From NCBI GenBank assembly GCA_944381535.1, contig CALWLN010000170.1:1-39078 (forward strand): a stretch of 39,078 nucleotides of DNA. The letters are read 5' to 3'. The position numbers were made by a program, and so were the translations under genes. Positions 17,938 through 34,135 of this stretch are shown one piece after another. The DNA is from an uncultured Lachnospiraceae bacterium. GTDB taxonomy: Bacteria > Bacillota > Clostridia > Lachnospirales > Lachnospiraceae. The notes beneath the pieces were generated by a model. That model was not told the DNA's origin. It was given only the letters and a program-made list of their open reading frames with translations, and did not search any database. Numbering within the stretch: the stretch's first letter is position 1; every line of letters starts with the position of its first letter.

Positions 17938-18083
17938 CTCTGCCCTCACCCAGTTCTCATATTTTACTGGCCATCCGTCTGCAACCATCCAATAAAGCAA
18001 CCGCATATTTTAAAATGCATGTAGTTTTTGGCACGGAAACCGTAGTATATAGATGTAACAAGGAAAGAAGGGGGGTGCCACTG

Positions 18084-18641
18084 ATGGAAGATGAAAAAAT
18101 CATCGAATTATTTTTCCGACGTTCCGAGCAGGCCATATGGGAACTGGATACAAAGTACGGCAGGGTCTGTCATCAGCTCTCATACAACATTGTAAACAAC
18201 CGGCAGGACGCGGAGGAATGTGTCAACGACGCATACCTGGGCGCATGGAACGCAATCCCGCCGGCAAAGCCCGATCCACTTCCGGCCTATCTGTGCAGAA
18301 TCGTCCGCAATCTTTCTCTGAAGGCCTATTATCGGAACAAAGCAGCTAAGCGAAACAGCGTCTATGATGTTGCCATGGCGGAGCTGGAAGCCTGTCTGCC
18401 CTCATCCGATACCGTGGAAGGCCAGATAGAGGCAAAGGAATTAGCCCGTATCATCGAAGCTTTTCTGAACACGCTGTCTATGGAAAATCGCGTCATTTTC
18501 ATGCGCCGCTACTGGTTTTTGGACAGCTACCGGGATATCGCAAGCCAGATGGGGCTTACCGAGAAGAACGTGTCCGTCCGGCTCACCCGCATCCGCCGGA
18601 GGATGAAAGACTATTTGACGGAAAGAGAGGTATTCCTATGA
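18084..18641 (+). CDS. ECF-type RNA polymerase sigma factor
   Basis: This is a 185-residue sigma-70 family protein with only regions 2 and 4. Region 2 contains ECVNDAYLGAWNAIPP and PLPAYLCRIVRNLSLKAYY. Region 4 contains LSMENRVIFMRRYWFLDSYR then IASQMGLTEKNVSVRLTRIRRRM. The start was placed at 18084 (MEDEKIIELFF), preceded by a purine-rich GAAGGGGGG. An upstream in-frame ATG at 18015 would add residues unlike the family and lies in likely promoter DNA. Its stop overlaps the next gene by ATGA, a usual arrangement for a sigma factor with its membrane-bound regulator. The target regulon is unknown. Confidence 0.9.
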   Translation: MEDEKIIELFFRRSEQAIWELDTKYGRVCHQLSYNIVNNRQDAEECVNDAYLGAWNAIPPAKPDPLPAYLCRIVRNLSLKAYYRNKAAKRNSVYDVAMAELEACLPSSDTVEGQIEAKELARIIEAFLNTLSMENRVIFMRRYWFLDSYRDIASQMGLTEKNVSVRLTRIRRRMKDYLTEREVFL

Positions 18642-19603
18642 ACACAGAAAAGTTTTCTTATGTGAAATTTTCTGACGCCATGAGCGAGCTTGACGACAGG
18701 TATATTGCGGAAGCAATCCGCTACAAAAAGAAATCCGGAAAGCGCAGGCTGGTAAAATGGAGCGCCCTGGCGGCCTGCCTGTGTCTTCTGCTGTCGGGGA
18801 CCCTTCTGTACCGGGCGGAACACCCGTATCCCGTAAAAGAAATAGAAACTCCCTCCGATTCCGCCTCGGAAATAGCGGAAATCCCCCGCTGGGAGGATAT
18901 GGAAATTTATTCCCAATACGGAGAGATTATCCTGAATAACCTGGAATACCAGACGGGAAACGGAGAAGTACCCACGGAACGACTGGGCGAAAGCCTGGGC
19001 ACCGTCACCGCCAGAGGCTGGGACGAATACGCATATATAGCCGGTGAGGACGCCAACCGGTACTGCGATGCGACGATATACGAGATAAAAAATATCTCTG
19101 TACAGTGCGCCGTGGCCGTACAATATGAGGGAACAGAGACCTGTTACGCCGCGGTGAATTCCTCCTACCGGCCGGAGACACTGGGACAGTTTATCGAGGA
19201 TCTGGACCTTCAAAATACGTTGGTTATTAACTGGGCCTCCTACGATTACCAAAAACCCTTAAGCGGATATGCCGCCATCCGTTTTGAGCAGCTTGATACG
19301 AACCGGGTCTGGGATCTGCTGTTGTCCGATGTGTCGGCAGAAAATGAATATGATGACCTGTCTTTCGATGAGCCAAAAGAGCTTTTAGGCATCTGCGTCA
19401 GTGTTCCCATGCTGGGCTATGAAAATATCAGCATCAGCGTCCGGGAAGACGGGTACCTCATCACCAACATCCTGTCCACAGGGAAAATGTTTCAGGTGGG
19501 CGAGGAGAACACCCAGGCCTTTGTGGATTACGTTTTGCAGGAATGCGAGGGGTATGAGATTGTGTATGTTTCCGATCCTGACGAGGACGGCGTTGCGGAA
19601 TAG
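18638..19603 (+). CDS. membrane-anchored partner of the ECF sigma factor (putative anti-sigma)
   Basis: This is a 321-residue protein with a short cytoplasmic N-terminus containing DAMSELDDRYIAEAIRY. This pattern is common in the proteins encoded directly behind ECF sigma factors in Lachnospiraceae (family knowledge). One membrane helix follows at about residues 40-60 (WSALAACLCLLLSGTLLY), then a 260-residue extracellular acidic domain with no recognised fold. There is no zinc-binding anti-sigma motif. The gene overlaps the sigma gene by 4 bases. Holding the sigma factor at the membrane is the inferred role; an effector function is also possible. Confidence 0.65.
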   Translation: MNTEKFSYVKFSDAMSELDDRYIAEAIRYKKKSGKRRLVKWSALAACLCLLLSGTLLYRAEHPYPVKEIETPSDSASEIAEIPRWEDMEIYSQYGEIILNNLEYQTGNGEVPTERLGESLGTVTARGWDEYAYIAGEDANRYCDATIYEIKNISVQCAVAVQYEGTETCYAAVNSSYRPETLGQFIEDLDLQNTLVINWASYDYQKPLSGYAAIRFEQLDTNRVWDLLLSDVSAENEYDDLSFDEPKELLGICVSVPMLGYENISISVREDGYLITNILSTGKMFQVGEENTQAFVDYVLQECEGYEIVYVSDPDEDGVAE

Positions 19604-19605
19604 AA

Positions 19606-19707
19606 TCCCCGGAATATAAAATAGGAATCCTGGACGCAAACTATTTTACCAGGATGTTTAAAGCCGATACGGGGATTACGCCCAGGAAATTCAGAGCTCG
19701 GACTTAA
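19606..19707 (+). pseudogene. C-terminal fragment of an AraC-family regulator
   Basis: A frame too short to be called on its own reads SPEYKIGILDANYFTRMFKA and continues to TGITPRKFR before a stop at 19705-19707. This is the last helix-turn-helix and signature of an AraC regulator (compare DPNYFSRVFKKxTGxTPxxYR). The residues before KIGIL do not fit, so most of the gene is deleted. It abuts the stop of the putative anti-sigma gene, which marks a deletion joint. Confidence 0.65.
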
Positions 19708-19818
19708 ACAACCATCTCCTGGGTATAATACCTCGCCTTTCTGGTTCCAGAAACCGTGAATTTGTGCTGTTTTTTCGGACTTCTTTTCGGACATCCTTTG
19801 TCCTATTAGAATCGTGTC

Positions 19819-20535
19819 TCATACTCCATCAAACAGAGAAAGCTGCTCCGCCTCCATCTCATACTCCGCAGCCGCCGGGGCTCTCCTTAACATGGCCTCC
19901 GCCGCCTCATCATCAAATAGCCAGCCTACAAGCTCCTCTTCCCCTATCAGAAGGGGCATACGCTCATGGACTTTTCTTAGGGTCTCGTTTGCCTGGGTGG
20001 TAATCACCACAAACCGGTTCTCCCCCTCCTTAAGGTCGTAACAGCCGGCCAGATAGAGGGTGGGCCTTCCCGCCTGATAGCACACGGCCTTCTCCCGGCT
20101 TAGGTTCCACTCATAAAAATGCCGAGCCGGCAACACGCACCGGCGATACCTTGCGCTTTCCCGAAAGGTCTTTTTCTCCAGAATCGTCTCGGCCCTGGCA
20201 TTGATAAGAAGGCCCTTCCCCTCATAGGGCGGAAATCCCCAGCGCATGGCGCCCGCAACAAGCCTGCCCTCTGCGCCAAACAGAACCGGCGCAGGCTGGG
20301 AGGGGCAAATATCGCCGTCCCATACAGCCCAGGAGAAATCACCTTCTCCGCTTTCCTCCGAAATTCCCAGTTCTCCGGCAATTTCCATATGCAAAAGGTT
20401 CCCGCCCTTCCGGGCCATATCCGCAGAATCCACACTCCGCCGGATGGCTCCTTCCTTCAACGCCAAATCCACGCCGTTCACAATCCGACGGATGTCCCTC
20501 ATCACGCCGTCATCCACATAATACCGTCCGCACAT
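19819..20535 (-). CDS. yedK: SOS response-associated peptidase / abasic-site protein (YedK/HMCES family)
   Basis: This 238-residue SRAP protein forms a covalent thiazolidine cross-link with abasic sites in single-stranded DNA, shielding them. The catalytic cysteine is C2 after removal of Met1 (MCGRYYV). Other conserved parts are NARAETI, the glutamate in ARHFYEWN and the histidine in KVHERMPLLI. The length is normal. It lies directly behind a small unknown gene and the Y-family polymerase, with a LexA-like box upstream of the pair, so damage-inducible expression is likely. Confidence 0.92.
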   Translation of the reverse strand: MCGRYYVDDGVMRDIRRIVNGVDLALKEGAIRRSVDSADMARKGGNLLHMEIAGELGISEESGEGDFSWAVWDGDICPSQPAPVLFGAEGRLVAGAMRWGFPPYEGKGLLINARAETILEKKTFRESARYRRCVLPARHFYEWNLSREKAVCYQAGRPTLYLAGCYDLKEGENRFVVITTQANETLRKVHERMPLLIGEEELVGWLFDDEAAEAMLRRAPAAAEYEMEAEQLSLFDGV

Positions 20536-20547
20536 AGGCTCGTCTTA

Positions 20548-20868
20548 CTACCTCCTGTTTTTCCATAATATTTTCCACTCCTGCCGTTCCACATAATATA
20601 GCAGCCGGAACAGATATCTCGTTTCCCCTAGCATTATATCACATTCAAACTCTATGGTGGGGATTCCGCAGTAAAATTTTTCTTCCTCGGTTATCACATG
20701 GATATCCGAAAGAGTGTGAAGCGTTCCCTCCCGGTCCTGAAATTTAATGGTCTTTGGCAGTATCCGCCCGGTGCTGGTAAACCAGACACCACAGGCGACG
20801 GGCTCCTGGTAACCCTTGATTTCTCCGGCGTCCGCCGGTCCTGCATTGATTCCGATTCCCATTCCCAT
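20548..20868 (-). CDS. small protein of unknown function between dinB and yedK
   Basis: This is a 106-residue soluble protein of no named family that I can assign with confidence. The start at 20868 has AGGGGAG 7 bases upstream; an ATG at 20901 would add 11 residues but has no ribosome site. The middle reads as a small beta-barrel (GRILPKTIKF, then TLHTLSDIHVI, then RYLFRLLYYVERQEWKILWK). This layout resembles short proteins often found next to Y-family polymerases in Lachnospiraceae (remembered pattern, not checked). It ends 12 bases before yedK, and a LexA-like box lies 68-81 bases upstream, so a role in damage tolerance is inferred from context only. Confidence 0.75.
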   Translation of the reverse strand: MGMGIGINAGPADAGEIKGYQEPVACGVWFTSTGRILPKTIKFQDREGTLHTLSDIHVITEEEKFYCGIPTIEFECDIMLGETRYLFRLLYYVERQEWKILWKNRR

Positions 20869-20935
20869 AGCAAGCTCCCCTGTTCCTTCCTTCTCATACA
20901 TAGTATGCGCCCAATTACGTGAAATAGCCCCGCTT

Positions 20936-20949
20936 CAAACATACGTTTC
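20936..20949. promoter_or_regulatory. LexA-like SOS box upstream of the unknown gene and yedK
   Basis: CAAACATACGTTTC differs from the Gram-positive consensus CGAACRNRYGTTYC only at position 2. It lies right behind the dinB stop and upstream of the next gene, with TTGAAA overlapping it on the minus strand. Confidence 0.65.
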
Positions 20950-20953
20950 AATT

Positions 20954-22222
20954 TTAATCGATCCTGACACTTCCATAGTCCACACTCCGCTTCTCCCGGG
21001 ACACGCCGCCGGAGAGGTGGTCGATGGGACTGCCCAGGAAAACGGCCCGCTTCACTGCGTCAATGCCATGGGTCTTTCGGATTCCGTCCACCGCCCGATT
21101 CAGCTTCCGCAGCCGCTCATAATCCATGACGTCAAACATATCCATCTGCCGCATGTCCGCCCCGTCGGAAATCCGGCTGGTATGAAGCCCCAGATGGCGG
21201 ATGGGCCTGCCGTCCCAGACCTCATCGAACAACCGGCAGGCATGGGCATACAATTCCTCCGTAATGTCGGTGGCCTGATTCAGCACCGTCTGATGGCTTA
21301 CATATTTAAAATCATGGCTTTTAATCCCCACCGCCAGCACCTGGGCCCGGACTCCATGCTCCCGCAGTCTGGCTCCCACGGTCTCCGCCAGGGCCAGCAG
21401 CACCAGCCTGGCGGTGGAGGCGTCGGTGACGTCAAAGGCGATGGTGGTGGAATTGCCGTAGCCCTTCTGAGGCGGCGGCTCAAATTCCACCACGGAGCAG
21501 TCCCGTCCGTTGGCAAAATTCCAGATGACCTCCCCGTGCTTCTTCAAAACACTTTTCAAAAGGGCCGGGTCCGTGCCCGCCAGCTCCCCAATCGTGGTAA
21601 TCCCCATATTCAGAAGCTTTTTTGCGGTGGCCCTGCCCACGAAAAATAAGTCCGATACCGGCAGGGGCCACAATTTTGCCGGAATCTCCTCCGCAAACAT
21701 GGTATGCACCAGATCCGGCTTCTTTAATTCCCCGGCCATTTTTGCCAAAAGCTTATTTGGGGCCACCCCGATATTCACGGTAAAGCCCAGTTCCTCTCTG
21801 ATTCGATCCTTAACCTCCTCCGCCACCCGTACCGGATCATTTCCCAACATTCCTATGGTGCCCGTCATGTCCATGAAAGCCTCATCGATACTGTACTGCT
21901 CCACCTCGGGAGTATATTCCCGCAGAAGTTTCAAAAAGGCCTTCGAACACCTTTCATACAGCCCATAATTGGGCGGCACCATATAAAGCCCGGGACACCG
22001 CTGACGGGCCTCCATCACCGACATGCCGGTCTGAATGCCATACCGCTTGGCCGGCATGCTCTTAGCCAGAATAATCCCGTGCCGGGCCGCCATATCCCCC
22101 GACACCGCCGAGGGGATCTCTCTGATATCCAGCCTTCCGCCCAGATGGTGCAGGCGGTAGGCCGCTTCCCAGGACAGGAAGGCGCTGTTTACATCCACAT
22201 GAAATACCAGCATATCAAACAT
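20954..22222 (-). CDS. dinB: Y-family DNA polymerase (DNA polymerase IV type)
   Basis: This 422-residue translesion polymerase has the catalytic aspartate in FHVDVNSAFLSWE near the N-terminus and the YSIDEAFMD motif near residue 105. The helix-hairpin-helix thumb is around LFFVGRATAKKLLNMGI, and the little finger contains GNSTTIAFDVTD. No beta-clamp motif was called with confidence. The start is taken as ATG 22222 with AAAGGA upstream; the frame extends to 22273 but that part lies in the promoter. Two LexA-like boxes, one in the promoter spacer and one over the start codon, indicate damage-induced expression. Confidence 0.92.
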   Translation of the reverse strand: MFDMLVFHVDVNSAFLSWEAAYRLHHLGGRLDIREIPSAVSGDMAARHGIILAKSMPAKRYGIQTGMSVMEARQRCPGLYMVPPNYGLYERCSKAFLKLLREYTPEVEQYSIDEAFMDMTGTIGMLGNDPVRVAEEVKDRIREELGFTVNIGVAPNKLLAKMAGELKKPDLVHTMFAEEIPAKLWPLPVSDLFFVGRATAKKLLNMGITTIGELAGTDPALLKSVLKKHGEVIWNFANGRDCSVVEFEPPPQKGYGNSTTIAFDVTDASTARLVLLALAETVGARLREHGVRAQVLAVGIKSHDFKYVSHQTVLNQATDITEELYAHACRLFDEVWDGRPIRHLGLHTSRISDGADMRQMDMFDVMDYERLRKLNRAVDGIRKTHGIDAVKRAVFLGSPIDHLSGGVSREKRSVDYGSVRID

Positions 22223-22229
22223 ATGTTCC
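22216..22229. promoter_or_regulatory. LexA-like SOS box over the dinB start
   Basis: CAAACATATGTTCC differs from CGAACRNRYGTTYC only at position 2. It covers the ATG at 22220-22222 and the spacer to the ribosome site, so bound repressor would block transcription just downstream of the promoter. Confidence 0.7.
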
Positions 22230-22244
22230 TTTCTCTTTTCTATC

Positions 22245-22273
22245 ATCATACACGAATATATGTTTGTTTGCAA
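22245..22273 (-). promoter_or_regulatory. dinB promoter with a LexA-like box in its spacer
   Basis: On the minus strand: TTGCAA (22268-22273), 17-base spacer, TATGAT (22245-22250). The spacer holds CGAATATATGTTTG (22253-22266), matching 12 of 14 positions of the SOS consensus. This box and the one at 22216 are 37 bases apart centre to centre. Confidence 0.75.
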
Positions 22274-22356
22274 CTGGTAATTATTACCTTTTTATTCCCA
22301 CCATTGCGGAGCATGCTGCTTAGAGCGGGATGGGCCGTAACATTTTTCTTTTTCCG

Positions 22357-24432
22357 TTACCTTTCCTCCTCCAACAGTCCGCTCAACTCCCCATGGTACA
22401 CAATATGAAGCTCATGGAGGGCCCGGGTGATGGCCACATACAGAAGCTTGGCGTCTCCCTGGCTTTCACTATAGGCTTCTCTGTCCGGGTTCCACAGAAT
22501 CACGCTGTCAAATTCCAGTCCCTTGGTCAGCTGAATGGGCAGCACCATCACGCCCTGCCGGAAATCCAGGGTGCTGCCAGCAGCCTCCGTCTCCCCTTCC
22601 CGGAAAACACCTCTGGCCTCAAGGTCCTGTTCCACCGCTTCCGCCTCCGCCTGATTCCGGCAGATGACAGCGATGGTCCCATATCCCCGGCCTTTGATTT
22701 CCGAAAGTAAGGCCGCTGTTTTCTCTCCCATCTCTTGTTCCCCAACCTTACAGAAATCCACCGGCGCCCCGTGGCGGATCACCGGCTGAATCTTATATTT
22801 TCCAAAGGAAGCCTGCTCCAGCACCCGCCCGGCCACCTCCGAAATTTCAATGGTATTCCGATAGCTTTTGGCCAAAAGGTAAAATCCGGCGCGCTCCCCG
22901 GCAAACACCCCTTCCGTCAGCGCCTCCCAGTCATTCATTCCCGTCTCGTAATGAATGTTCTGGGACACATCTCCCATAATGGTGAAATAGCACTGGTGCA
23001 GCACCTGCTTCATCACATAATACACCGCCGCCCCAAAATCCTGGGCCTCGTCGATGATGATCTGCCCATACTCCTCATAAAATTCCTTCTCCGTCATACG
23101 CTTCTGAATCAACGCCAGCGCCGCCAGATCGTACACGTCAAACTGCCCCCTGGCCGTGTGGGCAAGAACAGATTCCACCAAAATCCCATGGTCTTCCCCA
23201 TATCCCTTAAGAAAATCATGATACATCCCCACCAGATTTTTCAACTCCGGTCCCTGGTAAAAATATCCCCGATATTCCTTCTGCTTATCCCTGCAAAAAT
23301 CCTTGTTGTCCTCCGGCACCAGAAACCGGATCCGGGTCCGTATCCGTTCGTTCAGCAGCCGGTAGATCCGCGCGACGGAATCCCTGGGATTTTCCATCAG
23401 GGTTCTCTGAATACTCTCCCCAGACAATATAACTCCCAAGATCTTGTCCGTCACCTGTACCTGGTCAAAAAGCTTATGCCGGAGTTCCTTAAGATATCCG
23501 TCCAGGGCCTCCACAAATTCCAGCTTGCTCTTGAAGCTTTCCTTTCGGGAAAGCTCTGCCAGGCGATAGCTCTTCTTCCACTCCTTTCCCAAAAGTTCCC
23601 GGAAAAAGGCGTCCATCCGAAGCTGCCTTACATGATACACGTCCAGCTCCGGCAGCCCGCTGGTGATATAGCCAAGCAGCATGTCATTGCTGCCGATAAC
23701 GCAAAATTCATCTGGACGGAACCGTTCCTCATAGTTATATAAAATATAAGAGATCCGGTGCATGGCCACGGTGGTCTTGCCGCTGCCCGCCACTCCCTGC
23801 ACAATGAGATTCCGAAAGGGCGACTGCCGGATGATTTCGTTCTGCTCCTTCTGAATGGTGGAGATAATATCTCCCAGGATCACGTCCTTGTTCTGGGACA
23901 GATATTTTACCAGAAGCTCGTCGTTAGCCGCCGTATCATTATCATAATACCCCAGAAGCTGCCCGTCGCTGACGTCAAAGGTGCGCTTCAGCTTTAGTTC
24001 CACCGCAATCTCTCCGATTTCCGGCACCTCATAGCTTCCCGGCCCCAGCTCATTTTCATAATACAGGGTGGACACCGGGGCCCGCCAGTCCACAACCACC
24101 ACATTTGTCTTATCCCGGGAGACGCCGTTTTTGCCGATATAAAGCTGTTCCTCCTGGCTGGTGGCCTCCTCCCGGTAATCAATCCGCCCAAAATAGGGCT
24201 TCACATAAGCCGCCCGGTTCTTCCGAAGCTGCCGCTCATTGTGCTCCTGGACATCCTTACTCACGATCAACTGATTGTAGAGCTCCACATCCCCGGAGGC
24301 CACCGCCGCAAACAGCGCTTCCGTCTCCGCCTTTCCCTGCCGGGCCTTTTCCTCGTAGTACTCAATATTTTCAGCAATCAGCTCACGGCATTCTGAAAAA
24401 TGCTGCTGCTCCCGTTCCTGCTCCAAATCCAT
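22357..24432 (-). CDS. helD: HelD-type UvrD/Rep-family helicase-like ATPase
   Basis: This is a 691-residue cytoplasmic superfamily 1 motor. The N-terminal coiled-coil arm (about residues 1-60) and the segment YFGRIDYRE then YIGKNGVSRD are typical of HelD, which removes stalled RNA polymerase from DNA in Firmicutes. Motor motifs: GVAGSGKTTVAMHRISYIL (Walker A, near residue 215), IIDEAQDFG (Walker B), KSYRNTIEIS (motif IV-like), QLTKGLEFDSVI and LYVAITRALHEL (motifs V-VI). GGGAGG lies 9 bases before ATG 24432. It is divergent from the zinc-ribbon gene. The name rests on the combined N-terminal arm and the motor; a generic UvrD-like helicase is the alternative. Confidence 0.85.
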   Translation of the reverse strand: MDLEQEREQQHFSECRELIAENIEYYEEKARQGKAETEALFAAVASGDVELYNQLIVSKDVQEHNERQLRKNRAAYVKPYFGRIDYREEATSQEEQLYIGKNGVSRDKTNVVVVDWRAPVSTLYYENELGPGSYEVPEIGEIAVELKLKRTFDVSDGQLLGYYDNDTAANDELLVKYLSQNKDVILGDIISTIQKEQNEIIRQSPFRNLIVQGVAGSGKTTVAMHRISYILYNYEERFRPDEFCVIGSNDMLLGYITSGLPELDVYHVRQLRMDAFFRELLGKEWKKSYRLAELSRKESFKSKLEFVEALDGYLKELRHKLFDQVQVTDKILGVILSGESIQRTLMENPRDSVARIYRLLNERIRTRIRFLVPEDNKDFCRDKQKEYRGYFYQGPELKNLVGMYHDFLKGYGEDHGILVESVLAHTARGQFDVYDLAALALIQKRMTEKEFYEEYGQIIIDEAQDFGAAVYYVMKQVLHQCYFTIMGDVSQNIHYETGMNDWEALTEGVFAGERAGFYLLAKSYRNTIEISEVAGRVLEQASFGKYKIQPVIRHGAPVDFCKVGEQEMGEKTAALLSEIKGRGYGTIAVICRNQAEAEAVEQDLEARGVFREGETEAAGSTLDFRQGVMVLPIQLTKGLEFDSVILWNPDREAYSESQGDAKLLYVAITRALHELHIVYHGELSGLLEEER

Positions 24433-24497
24433 CCTTCGCGTCCTCCCTTTCCTTCACAGATTTCTCTCACAGAATACCAAAAAAAGAAAAAAAGTGC

Positions 24498-24526
24498 TAG
24501 ACTTATATTTTTATTTGTGATATGAT
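24498..24526 (+). promoter_or_regulatory. promoter of the zinc-ribbon/DUF2085 operon
   Basis: TAGACT (24498-24503), 17-base spacer, TATGAT (24521-24526). The predicted start near 24533 leaves a 90-base leader that contains a strong hairpin and a LexA-like box. Confidence 0.65.
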
Positions 24527-24545
24527 GATAACTGTAATTTCACCC

Positions 24546-24586
24546 AAAAACAGGAACCACATTTTCGAATGTATGTTCCTGTTTTT
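24546..24586 (+). promoter_or_regulatory. leader hairpin with U-run and embedded LexA-like box
   Basis: Stem ACAGGAAC (24550-24557) with GTTCCTGT (24575-24582), nested stem ACATT/AATGT with a TTCG loop, and flanking A5/T5 that extend the stem and give a terminator-like U-run. It sits between the promoter and the gene, so it may attenuate transcription. CGAATGTATGTTCC at 24566-24579 matches 13 of 14 positions of the SOS consensus (mismatch at position 5). Confidence 0.6.
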
Positions 24587-24621
24587 AAATACATAGCGCA
24601 TGCTTTCAGGAGGTAATTTTT

Positions 24622-24852
24622 ATGGTATGTCCAAAATGCGGCAGTACAAACGTCACCAGCCAGGCAATCACGGAAACCACCGCCAAGGGGAAAACCAAGG
24701 GCTTCGGATGGATAAAGGCCTGCCTGGGCTTTCTCATTTTCAGCCTGCCCGGCGTCCTGTGCGGTCTGTGCGGCATGGGCAAGGAAAAAACTAAGACCAG
24801 AACCACCACGAGGGTGATACACGTATGTCAAAATTGCGGAAATCACTGGTAA
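24622..24852 (+). CDS. small zinc-ribbon membrane protein
   Basis: This is a 76-residue protein. An N-terminal CPKCGSTNV and a C-terminal CQNCGNHW form a split zinc ribbon around a glycine-rich hydrophobic segment (about residues 32-52), so it probably inserts in the membrane with both ends near the same side. AGGAGG lies 8 bases before the ATG. Its last 28 bases overlap the following DUF2085 gene in another frame, showing translational coupling. Function unknown. The promoter and the LexA-like box in the leader suggest stress-linked expression. Confidence 0.8.
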
Positions 24853-25196
24853 ATTTCATCTATGAGCTAGGCGATTACAGCGGCTGCCATCAGCTTCCGG
24901 AGCGAAGCTTCTTCTGGAGGGGCCGCCAGTTTCCCGTGTGCGCCCGCTGTACCGGCGTAGCTGTGGGCCAGTTGCTGGCTGTCGTCACAGGGATTTTCCT
25001 CTCCGTCCCCCTTCTGTTGTCTCTCCTGTTCCTGTCGCTTATAGGATTGGACTGGGGTTTGCAGGAGCTTAAGATTGCGGAGTCCAACAATTTCCGGCGG
25101 CTTTTCACCGGGATACTGGGAGGCTTTGGACTGTTCAGTATCTATATACGCATTTTCAAAAAGATTTGCTCCTTTTTCAAAAATCATAAATTTTAA
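24825..25196 (+). CDS. DUF2085 family membrane protein
   Basis: This is a 123-residue protein with the DUF2085 signature [12 protein letters not shown] followed by [10 protein letters not shown]. The conserved cysteines and histidine could bind a metal or heme. Two to three membrane helices follow ([32 protein letters not shown], and a weaker one near the end). It overlaps the zinc-ribbon gene by 28 bases and has no separate ribosome site, so both are one operon. The biochemical role of the family is not known to me. Confidence 0.8.
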
Positions 25197-25325
25197 AAAG
25201 AAATTGTATAAAGAGATTTTTTTCGTTCATACTATAATTACCGGCAGAGAAATGAAGGGCCCCCACCCGTTTCTCCCGGGAACTACCAATGATGAAGTTA
25301 AATACTTATCCTCCCCTTTTAATAA

Positions 25326-25375
25326 GAAAGGCGAAATGCCCCGAAAACAATTTGTTCCAGGGCGTTTCGCCTTTC
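25326..25375. repeat. 50-bp imperfect palindrome, possible bidirectional terminator
   Basis: Arms GAAAGGCGAAATGCCC (25326-25341) and GGGCGTTTCGCCTTTC (25360-25375) pair over 16 positions with one T/G wobble, and the loop can pair further (AACAA/TTGTT). It lies between the DUF2085 stop and the UgpC stop. The following bases are only weakly U-rich on either strand. Confidence 0.55.
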
Positions 25376-25407
25376 TTTGCGTCCTGCCGTTCCATGATGG
25401 GCAAACC

Positions 25408-25436
25408 TAAAAAGAGGCCGCCGCAAAGCGGCAGCC
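25408..25436 (-). terminator. intrinsic terminator after ugpC
   Basis: On the minus strand GGCTGCCGC pairs with GCGGCGGCC (25428-25436 with 25416-25424, one wobble), with an AAA-side loop and a TCTTTTTAG tail. It lies 15 bases past the ugpC stop. Confidence 0.85.
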
Positions 25437-25450
25437 CCCAAAATTTCTGA

Positions 25451-26563
25451 TTAATGTGTAATTACCAGCTCAGTCTCTTTGTCGAATACGTGAATCTTCT
25501 CAACATCCATAGCCAGCTTGATGGTGTCGCCGTAACGAGCGGTTGTTCTGGAATCAACCTTGGCGGTCATCGGTGTGTCGTTGACACTGTAGTACAACAG
25601 AACCTCGGAACCAAGCAGCTCGTAACCGGTAACGGTGGTGGTTACAATACCATCCGCATGAGTCTCGATGGCAATCTGAGAATCATCAATATCCTCGGGA
25701 CGGACACCAAGTACAACGGTCTTGCCTGCGTAGCCGCCTTCCTTCAGGGCATGGGCCTTTGCGGGAGGAAGTACAACGGTGAAATCGCCGAACTTCAGGG
25801 AAACCTTGTCGCCATCAACGATACACTCGGCATCCAGGAAGTTCATCTGCGGAGATCCGATAAATCCTGCCACGAACAGGTTATCCGGCTCGTTGTATAA
25901 GGTCTGGGGAGAATCTACCTGCTGGATAACGCCATCCTTCAGAACAACGATTCTGGTACCCAGAGTCATAGCCTCTGTCTGGTCATGGGTAACGTAGATG
26001 ATGGTTGCGCCCAGTCTCTGGTGCAGGGAAGCAATCTCGGAACGCATCTGCACTCTCAGCTTAGCGTCCAGGTTGGACAGCGGCTCATCCATCAGGAATA
26101 CCTTGGGCTCACGAACAATAGCACGTCCCATAGCCACACGCTGTCTCTGACCACCGGACAGAGCCTTGGGCTTACGGTCAAGCAGCTTCTCCAGGTCAAG
26201 GATTCTGGCTGCCTCTTCCACCTTCTGCTTAATCTCGGGCTTGGGAACCTTTCTCAATTTCAAACCGAAGGCCATGTTGTCAAACACGGTCATATGGGGA
26301 TACAGAGCGTAGTTCTGGAATACCATGGCGATATCTCTGTCCTTGGGCTCCACGTCGTTCATTAATTTTCCATCAATGTATAACTCACCCTCAGAAATCT
26401 CCTCCAGGCCCGCAATCATACGAAGGGTTGTGGACTTACCGCATCCGGAAGGACCTACGAAGATGATGAATTCCTTGTCGGCTACTTCCAGGTTGAAATC
26501 CTTAACCGCTTCAAAGCCGTTAGGGTATTTCTTGGTGATATTTTTCAGTGATAAACTTGCCAT
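25451..26563 (-). CDS. ugpC: carbohydrate ABC transporter ATP-binding protein (UgpC/MsmX/MalK type)
   Basis: This 370-residue cytoplasmic ATPase energises sugar ABC importers. It has Walker A GPSGCGKST (about residues 37-45), signature LSGGQRQRVAMGRA, Walker B VFLMDEPLSNLD and switch THDQTEA. A C-terminal TOBE/regulatory region (GVRPEDI) as in MalK follows. It stands alone with its own ribosome site (AGGAGG, 8 bases before ATG) and terminator and has no permease beside it. This is typical of the shared MsmX-type ATPase that serves many sugar importers. Codon choice (for example many CTG, GGC, AAC) looks stronger than in its neighbours, suggesting high expression. Confidence 0.93.
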   Translation of the reverse strand: MASLSLKNITKKYPNGFEAVKDFNLEVADKEFIIFVGPSGCGKSTTLRMIAGLEEISEGELYIDGKLMNDVEPKDRDIAMVFQNYALYPHMTVFDNMAFGLKLRKVPKPEIKQKVEEAARILDLEKLLDRKPKALSGGQRQRVAMGRAIVREPKVFLMDEPLSNLDAKLRVQMRSEIASLHQRLGATIIYVTHDQTEAMTLGTRIVVLKDGVIQQVDSPQTLYNEPDNLFVAGFIGSPQMNFLDAECIVDGDKVSLKFGDFTVVLPPAKAHALKEGGYAGKTVVLGVRPEDIDDSQIAIETHADGIVTTTVTGYELLGSEVLLYYSVNDTPMTAKVDSRTTARYGDTIKLAMDVEKIHVFDKETELVITH

Positions 26564-26663
26564 AATGAAACCTCCTAAAAAATGTTTGCTTTATTTTGTT
26601 CTCAGCAATTTGCCTGTATATACTTTACCAAATTCCGCGGATTTTCACCACCCTGAAACTTCA

Positions 26664-33930: not shown

Positions 33931-34135
33931 TAGGAAATAGCCCCACATTTTTGTAACCGAATAGAACCACGCGACTATCGCATGGTTTTCTTAAGACAGA
34001 AAGGACTATCTACGTACACGGATTGCTCGAACTGCCACTGTTTGATCTTACAAAAATACAGCGCAGGCGCCGAGACTAAAAAACCTCGTACACCCACGCT
34101 GTCTGTGATCATCCAAACAATCTTTTGTAACCCCA

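Follow-up and report, generated by a model that had tools for sequence, protein, structure and literature searches.

We analyzed a 39,078-nucleotide stretch of DNA, referred to below as the window, from an uncultured Lachnospiraceae bacterium (contig CALWLN010000170.1, C170 in our numbering, of the 4.3-Mb draft genome GCA_944381535.1), with a focus on a Y-family DNA polymerase gene, its neighbors and four LexA-like boxes that suggest an SOS-type regulon. The named records closest to this polymerase are themselves Lachnospiraceae. Its gene lies on the minus strand (20954..22222, start ATG at 22222; Pfam IMS, IMS_C and IMS_HHH; best NCBIfam model PRK03103, below the curated cut-off) and is followed on the same strand by orf117 (20548..20868), which from its probable start at ATG 20868 encodes a small all-beta protein of 106 amino acids, and by a gene of the SRAP (YedK/HMCES) family (19819..20535; Pfam SRAP, E = 8.2e-32). 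A zinc-ribbon/DUF2085 gene pair lies further along on the plus strand. The original prediction placed LexA-like sites at four gene starts in this region, and all four are present: box A (20936-20949, minus strand) right after the polymerase stop codon, box B (22216-22229, minus strand) over the polymerase start codon, box C (22253-22266, minus strand) in the polymerase promoter region, and box D (24566-24579, plus strand) ahead of the zinc-ribbon gene. Three of the sequences (CAAACATACGTTTC, CAAACATATGTTCC and CGAATGTATGTTCC) depart from the consensus CGAACRNRYGTTYC at one position and the fourth (CGAATATATGTTTG) at two.

LexA and its motif in the genome

LexA itself, on which any such regulon depends, is encoded by the genome (profile match on contig C173, 86.1 bits, above the cut-off) as a protein of 205 amino acids. 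A second, weak LexA_DNA_bind match, in a 149-amino-acid frame (L002, C75:1861-2019), scores 21.5 bits and falls below the cut-off. An unseeded search of the 220-base regions ahead of lexA from 29 genomes, including this one and that of its sister species, returned the palindromic motif CGAACATATGTTCG. Pattern searches of the genome found three boxes at lexA, one box (CGAACCTATGTTCG) ∼17 bp upstream of recA, and one (CAAACATTTGTTTT) immediately upstream of pcrA, a LexA target in Bacillus subtilis. Many further pattern matches in the genome fall within genes, and the 15 genome places of the pattern CRAAYRNRYGTTYS, which was shaped on the four window sites, are a biased count.

Strong boxes also precede a Rad3-like helicase gene (CAAACAAATGTTTG, L096 1501-1514) and a TIGR03916 radical-SAM DNA modification/repair gene (CGAACATATTTTCG, L178 1501-1514, ∼110 bp before the likely start); from this box the latter is a candidate for a further SOS gene of the lineage. 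The helicase gene was also considered as addB, an identity rejected on the NCBIfam assignment.

Scoring of the four boxes

Three scoring matrices were used, all trained without the window sequence. The sharp matrix takes one site per promoter from 29 of 30 lexA promoters, those of this genome and its sister included (L159, which has no upstream sequence, was excluded). The lexA-only broad matrix holds 105 lexA-promoter sites from other species, with this genome and its sister left out, and the combined broad matrix adds to these 105 a further 114 polymerase-promoter sites from relatives; sites for both broad matrices were initially selected with the sharp one. Scores were compared with a 400-kb genome sample (20 stretches of 20 kb, 399,740 positions) drawn from contigs picked for their length rather than at random.

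The plain consensus was rejected as evidence, since at up to three mismatches it matches the window 76 times against 69.7 expected in shuffles. With the sharp matrix, C and B rank first and second in the window (0.02 and 0.03 expected per window), whereas A and D rank 7th and 11th, at chance level (1.8 and 2.7 expected). The lexA-only matrix places the four boxes at ranks 1–4 (B 19.0, C 18.8, A 14.7 and D 14.3 bits), ahead of sites at 34114 (12.7 bits) and 26575 (12.5 bits), and the positions in the 400-kb sample that score at least as high as B, C, A and D number 0, 0, 1 and 2 (0, 0, 0.10 and 0.20 per window). The combined matrix again puts them at ranks 1–4, the next best site reaching 11.4 bits versus 14.4 for D, with 0, 0, 1 and 3 sample positions at or above the respective scores. 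Pure chance as the sole view of A and D, suggested by the sharp matrix, was dropped because both broad matrices rank them third and fourth.

For two D-level sites within 3.6 kb we obtain P ∼2e-4, with a threshold and interval chosen after the sites had been seen; the figure is further weakened because A probably derives from a polymerase start like that of B. As a sequence observation the four-box cluster holds up, and the weight of A and D within it depends on the matrix. The companion claim, that gene starts elsewhere in the window carry no comparable site, holds with the two broad matrices, for which the four are the top four, and fails with the sharp matrix, by which a site at 26575-26588 beats A and D. 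This site (CTAAAAAATGTTTG) lies 12 bp ahead of a gene for an ABC transporter ATPase; it takes third place under the sharp matrix with 14.3 bits and reaches 12.5 and 10.0 bits under the broad matrices, and we take it as chance.

Two predicted operators at the polymerase promoter

Box C (CAAACATATATTCG on the minus strand; rank 1 or 2 with the three matrices) is enclosed by a promoter-like sequence found by promoter scan (TTGCAA-17-TATGAT, 22245..22273, minus strand), lying between its −35 and −10 elements. Box B (GGAACATATGTTTG, also rank 1 or 2), 37 bp downstream of C, covers the start codon of the polymerase, with the ATG inside the palindrome.

The same layout recurs in relatives. We compared the best 80 of 204 polymerase loci, which come from related genera and so are not independent, counting sites at 12 bits for the sharp matrix and 13 bits for the lexA-only matrix. 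Faecalicatena faecalis and Anaerocolumna aminovalerica are two cultured relatives represented among the polymerase loci that have the operon. With the sharp matrix, at least one site is present in 62 of 79 polymerase promoters and two in 20 of 79, the paired sites mostly 35–37 bp apart; the control region inside the polymerase gene gave one site in 4/79 and two in 0/79, and shuffled upstream sequences gave one site in 31/3950. With the lexA-only matrix, 68 of 78 promoters hold at least one site and 25 of 78 hold a pair 30–42 bp apart, compared with 1/78 and 0/78 inside the gene. Spacing is 34–39 bp in 24 of the 25 pairs (24/78 relatives), 35 bp being the commonest.

Among the 25 paired-box relatives, TTG or TTTAC lies at most 10 bases before the first box in 24, TAnnnT follows directly after it in 18, and GGAGG or GGGAG is found at the second box in 24. 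The start ATG also lies inside the second box in L040, L070 and L082, whose proteins begin with MFD or MFE. Independent matrices and conservation thus agree with the original prediction that the polymerase has one box in its promoter spacer and another over its start codon, and they support C and B as predicted LexA operators of the polymerase gene.

Probable operon partners of the polymerase

An orf117 match adjoins the polymerase in 75 of the 80 loci and begins within 70 bases of the end of the polymerase match in 62 of these 75. None of the 75 gaps between the two genes, that of the sister species among them, contains a LexA site with either the sharp or the lexA-only matrix; the top scores are 9.7 bits with the former (11.1 for A) and 7.8 bits with the latter (14.7 for A). 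For these gaps, and for SRAP below, the sharp matrix was applied at 12 bits, which is stricter than box A's own 11.1 bits, and the tests were repeated with the lexA-only matrix at 13 bits. SRAP matches occur in 52/80 loci: 23 downstream on the same strand, 25 upstream within 1.5 kb (21 of them within 300 bp), and four otherwise placed. The lexA-only matrix finds a box before none of the 25 upstream and none of the 23 downstream copies, and the sharp matrix finds one before a single downstream copy (1/23) and before no upstream copy. Since the promoter scan lists nothing near A on the minus strand, A is missing from the sister species and all 75 gaps are free of boxes, orf117 and SRAP are probably part of the operon headed by the polymerase.

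The orf117 product has no useful Pfam match. Its family keeps eight residues invariant (W29, T31, P38, K42, G68, C76, L89 and W98), and its structure model is all-beta with a predicted local distance difference test score (pLDDT) of 86, for which a fold search against the PDB returned nothing below E 0.001. ImuB-C domains are rich in beta structure and conserve a tryptophan near the C terminus along with basic residues; the observations that bear on this in orf117 are the all-beta model and the invariant K42 and W98. We regard the protein as a candidate stand-alone ImuB-C. An ImuB reference for it was sought in plasmid records, and none was recognized among the 60 matches listed of at least 5000; in one clostridial plasmid region the polymerase is followed by a gene annotated 'hypothetical protein'. 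An identity as YolD (PF08863) was rejected, as 34 family members gave no YolD match at E values up to 10.

Box A as a probable relic of a polymerase start

Box A sits in an insert of ∼65 bases between the polymerase stop codon and orf117 that is absent from the sister species. The box and the 22 bases after it are identical, in register, to the box-B/start region at 24 of 36 positions and to the polymerase start of Robinsoniella (L070) at 23 of 36. Over the 20 positions beyond the box there are 12 matches, a level that 0.15% of 20-mers from the window and the sample attain, and with the box included, a local alignment scores 15 versus at most 14, narrowly beating 300 of 300 simple shuffles. 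Read from its ATG, box A would encode MFEAGLFHVI, which resembles the polymerase start, MFDMLVFHVD. Elsewhere in the genome the insert has matches of 14–22 bases, the best being 21 bases at E 0.012. The promoter scan listed nothing on the minus strand near the box, which shows neither the conserved position nor the promoter of its own that would mark a LexA operator. The most likely origin of box A is duplication of a polymerase start, the box being a relic of that copy (an operator and about ten codons); it would therefore resemble a LexA box by descent.

Box D and the zinc-ribbon/DUF2085 operon

Box D lies on the plus strand inside a hairpin (AAAAACAGGAAC...GTTCCTGTTTTT, 24546..24586) in the putative leader of an operon encoding a zinc-ribbon protein (24622..24852, weak LITAF-like match) and a DUF2085 membrane protein (24825..25196; Pfam, E = 7e-29). 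Just upstream of the hairpin the promoter scan found a promoter-like sequence (TAGACT-17-TATGAT, its −10 preceded by TG; 24498..24526, plus strand). The hairpin lies in the intergenic region from which the helD-like and zinc-ribbon genes diverge and is a candidate terminator or attenuator. Box D ranks fourth or eleventh, depending on the matrix.

One explanation of D assigns the box to an intrinsic terminator or attenuator hairpin, of which it would simply be the arm and loop, with no role for LexA; this reading concerns D only and is compatible with a LexA-controlled polymerase operon. The stability of the hairpin is consistent with this (z = −5.0 on the plus strand and −5.7 on the minus strand), as are the A-tract and T-tract that flank it, although it is absent from the results of the terminator scan; an intrinsic terminator would have a G+C-rich stem with a T run immediately after it. 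The sister species keeps both the promoter and the hairpin, with one stem pair changed on both sides from G-C to A-T (A-U in the transcript), a covariation limited to a single pair in two species. The right inner arm, TCGAATGTATGTT, is unchanged there while the left one has changed, which an operator would also predict; with so few bases this is a weak observation. The sister's box D (CGAATGTATGTTTC) scores 13.3 bits with the lexA-only matrix. Among 17 zinc-ribbon loci, two of which are overlapping copies of one place, an upstream site is confined to this genome and the sister species, the other 15 reaching at most 9.4 bits in the 330 upstream bases versus 14.3 for D with the same matrix. We lean slightly toward the terminator/attenuator explanation. 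The sequence of box D more probably reflects the hairpin than LexA, and control of the zinc-ribbon/DUF2085 operon by LexA through D appears rather unlikely on this evidence. To our knowledge, such an operon is not an established part of the SOS response.

The distance from the hairpin to the zinc-ribbon start is 126 bases in the sister (L111) versus 35 in the window. A genome search with the hairpin recovered the hairpin itself and its reverse arm; all other matches were 14–24 bases long at E >0.7. Rfam, run on 19700-25460, gave two sub-threshold miRNA-family matches at 25321-25377, which we take as chance.

Proposed model and alternative explanations

The explanation that we favor, and consider likely from the sequence comparisons, is a single LexA-controlled SOS operon of polymerase, orf117 and SRAP with two operators, A being a relic and D a doubtful site. 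The operon would be transcribed from the TTGCAA-17-TATGAT promoter (22273-22245, minus strand). LexA bound at C would sit between the −35 and −10 elements and exclude RNA polymerase, and LexA at B, which covers the translation start 37 bp further downstream, would tighten repression. Upon DNA damage, RecA assembled on single-stranded DNA would trigger LexA self-cleavage and free both operators, allowing joint production of the polymerase, its small partner and SRAP. Their presumed roles, from what their families do, are lesion bypass and abasic-site protection. Box A would be a by-product, a stray copy of a polymerase start lodged between polymerase and orf117, and box D a LexA-like stretch in the leader hairpin of a different operon. 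The LexA gene, the boxes, the promoter-like sequence, the gene order and the double-box arrangement of the relatives are direct observations; LexA binding, repression, induction, co-transcription and what A and D do are inferred from them. Of the compact three-unit SOS regulon originally proposed, the polymerase operon is supported, a separate orf117-SRAP unit controlled from A is not, and a zinc-ribbon/DUF2085 unit controlled from D is unproven.

Several observations weigh against this model. The sister species (G002; locus L137 has the same boxes and gap as contig L003) keeps C as CGAACGTACATTCG and lacks B, and its C is weak with the sharp matrix (9.6 bits) and scores 15.0 bits with the combined one; two boxes are therefore not essential. 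In 17 of 79 loci the sharp matrix detects nothing at 12 bits, and the relatives that do have sites, taken from the best 80 of 204 loci in related genera, are not independent witnesses. SRAP lies upstream of the polymerase with no preceding box in 25 relatives (e.g. L044, L055 and L070), and therefore is not always part of a LexA-controlled unit. That the broad matrices place A and D among their four best sites also leaves room for both to be real operators.

The fullest form of that possibility takes all four boxes as working operators of three damage-inducible units: the polymerase, orf117-SRAP, and zinc ribbon-DUF2085, perhaps with helD. Ranks 1–4 with the two broad matrices, the mere two or three D-level sites in 400 kb and the persistence of the D stretch in the sister at 13.3 bits speak for such a regulon. 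With the sharp matrix, however, A and D are at chance; the A insert is missing from the sister, no box occupies that place in any of the 75 relatives, and no listed promoter lies nearby on its strand; the 15 other zinc-ribbon loci stay at or below 9.4 bits upstream, and D lies downstream of a promoter-like sequence, inside a hairpin. Taken together, these points make four working operators unlikely.

A second alternative keeps B and C as operators and has A co-opted, so that LexA bound at the polymerase-orf117 junction would act as a roadblock and lower orf117 and SRAP expression relative to the polymerase. Box A is a good LexA-like palindrome (14.7–15.8 bits with the broad matrices) in what is presumably a transcribed path, but the insert that carries it is missing from the sister and resembles a passive duplication, and relatives have no box there; we judge a roadblock to be quite improbable. 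That A is an operator copied along with a polymerase start codon, and D a LexA site folded into a leader hairpin, with both binding LexA, is very unlikely, and would imply that an operator spread by local duplication within an operon and that another was combined with an RNA attenuator, extending damage control to a membrane-protein operon.

Relation to known SOS systems

Apart from the motif, the promoter design and a caution about LexA-like boxes, the locus represents ordinary SOS biology in an operon of a known kind. It shares with the LexA regulons of B. subtilis and Clostridioides difficile, whose boxes are of the GAACNNNNGTTC/T type, the LexA gene and the box type common to both. According to passages of PMC4234289, C. 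difficile LexA targets include lexA and recA, and parts of PMC6511836 list the B. subtilis Y-family polymerases YqjW and UvrX as predicted to be under LexA. The motif here, CGAACATATGTTCG, differs from the B. subtilis/C. difficile box in its A/T-rich center, and the locus differs from those regulons in the paired boxes at the polymerase with their near-fixed 34–39 bp spacing.

The gene content likewise has precedents. Passages of PMC3765255 describe DinB in neighborhoods with stand-alone ImuB-C and SRAP, and sections of PMC6511836 describe stand-alone ImuB-C coupled with YqjH polymerases, mostly in Clostridia. As in the DinB-ImuB-C-SRAP operons of those passages, a Y-family polymerase is here adjoined by a small beta protein, with SRAP nearby; orf117, in contrast, lacks a Pfam match and is a candidate ImuB-C only. 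The pairing of a Y-family polymerase, predicted to be under LexA, with a small beta protein also resembles the UvrX/YqjW-YolD counterparts of Pol V in Gram-positives, as presented in parts of PMC6511836, from which the absence of a YolD (PF08863) match in 34 orf117 members sets this locus apart.

A literature search on LexA and SOS in Lachnospiraceae returned nothing on Lachnospiraceae LexA among the matches listed, one combining LexA box, Clostridium, regulon and Firmicutes returned no match, and one on two LexA boxes or on dinB with LexA did not have this arrangement among the matches listed. The analysis draws on many genomes to define a LexA motif for Lachnospiraceae, and points to a recurrent design at their translesion polymerase, in which one box in the promoter and another at the ribosome-binding site or start codon are held at a near-fixed distance. 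It also indicates that LexA-like boxes near SOS genes can be relics or hairpin arms, so that matching the consensus at its start does not suffice to assign a gene to the regulon.

Neighboring genes

Beyond SRAP, 18015-19603 (plus strand) contains a sigma-70-like gene with regions 2 and 4, followed by an overlapping gene for a 321-amino-acid protein that has no Pfam match. Directly upstream of the polymerase, between boxes C and D, lies a gene passed over in the original prediction that encodes a HelD-like RNA polymerase recycling motor (22357-24432, minus strand; NCBIfam HelD_BACSU, E = 6e-103, below the curated cut-off). Among the best 80 of 204 polymerase loci, this HelD-like neighbor is shared only by the sister contig L003.

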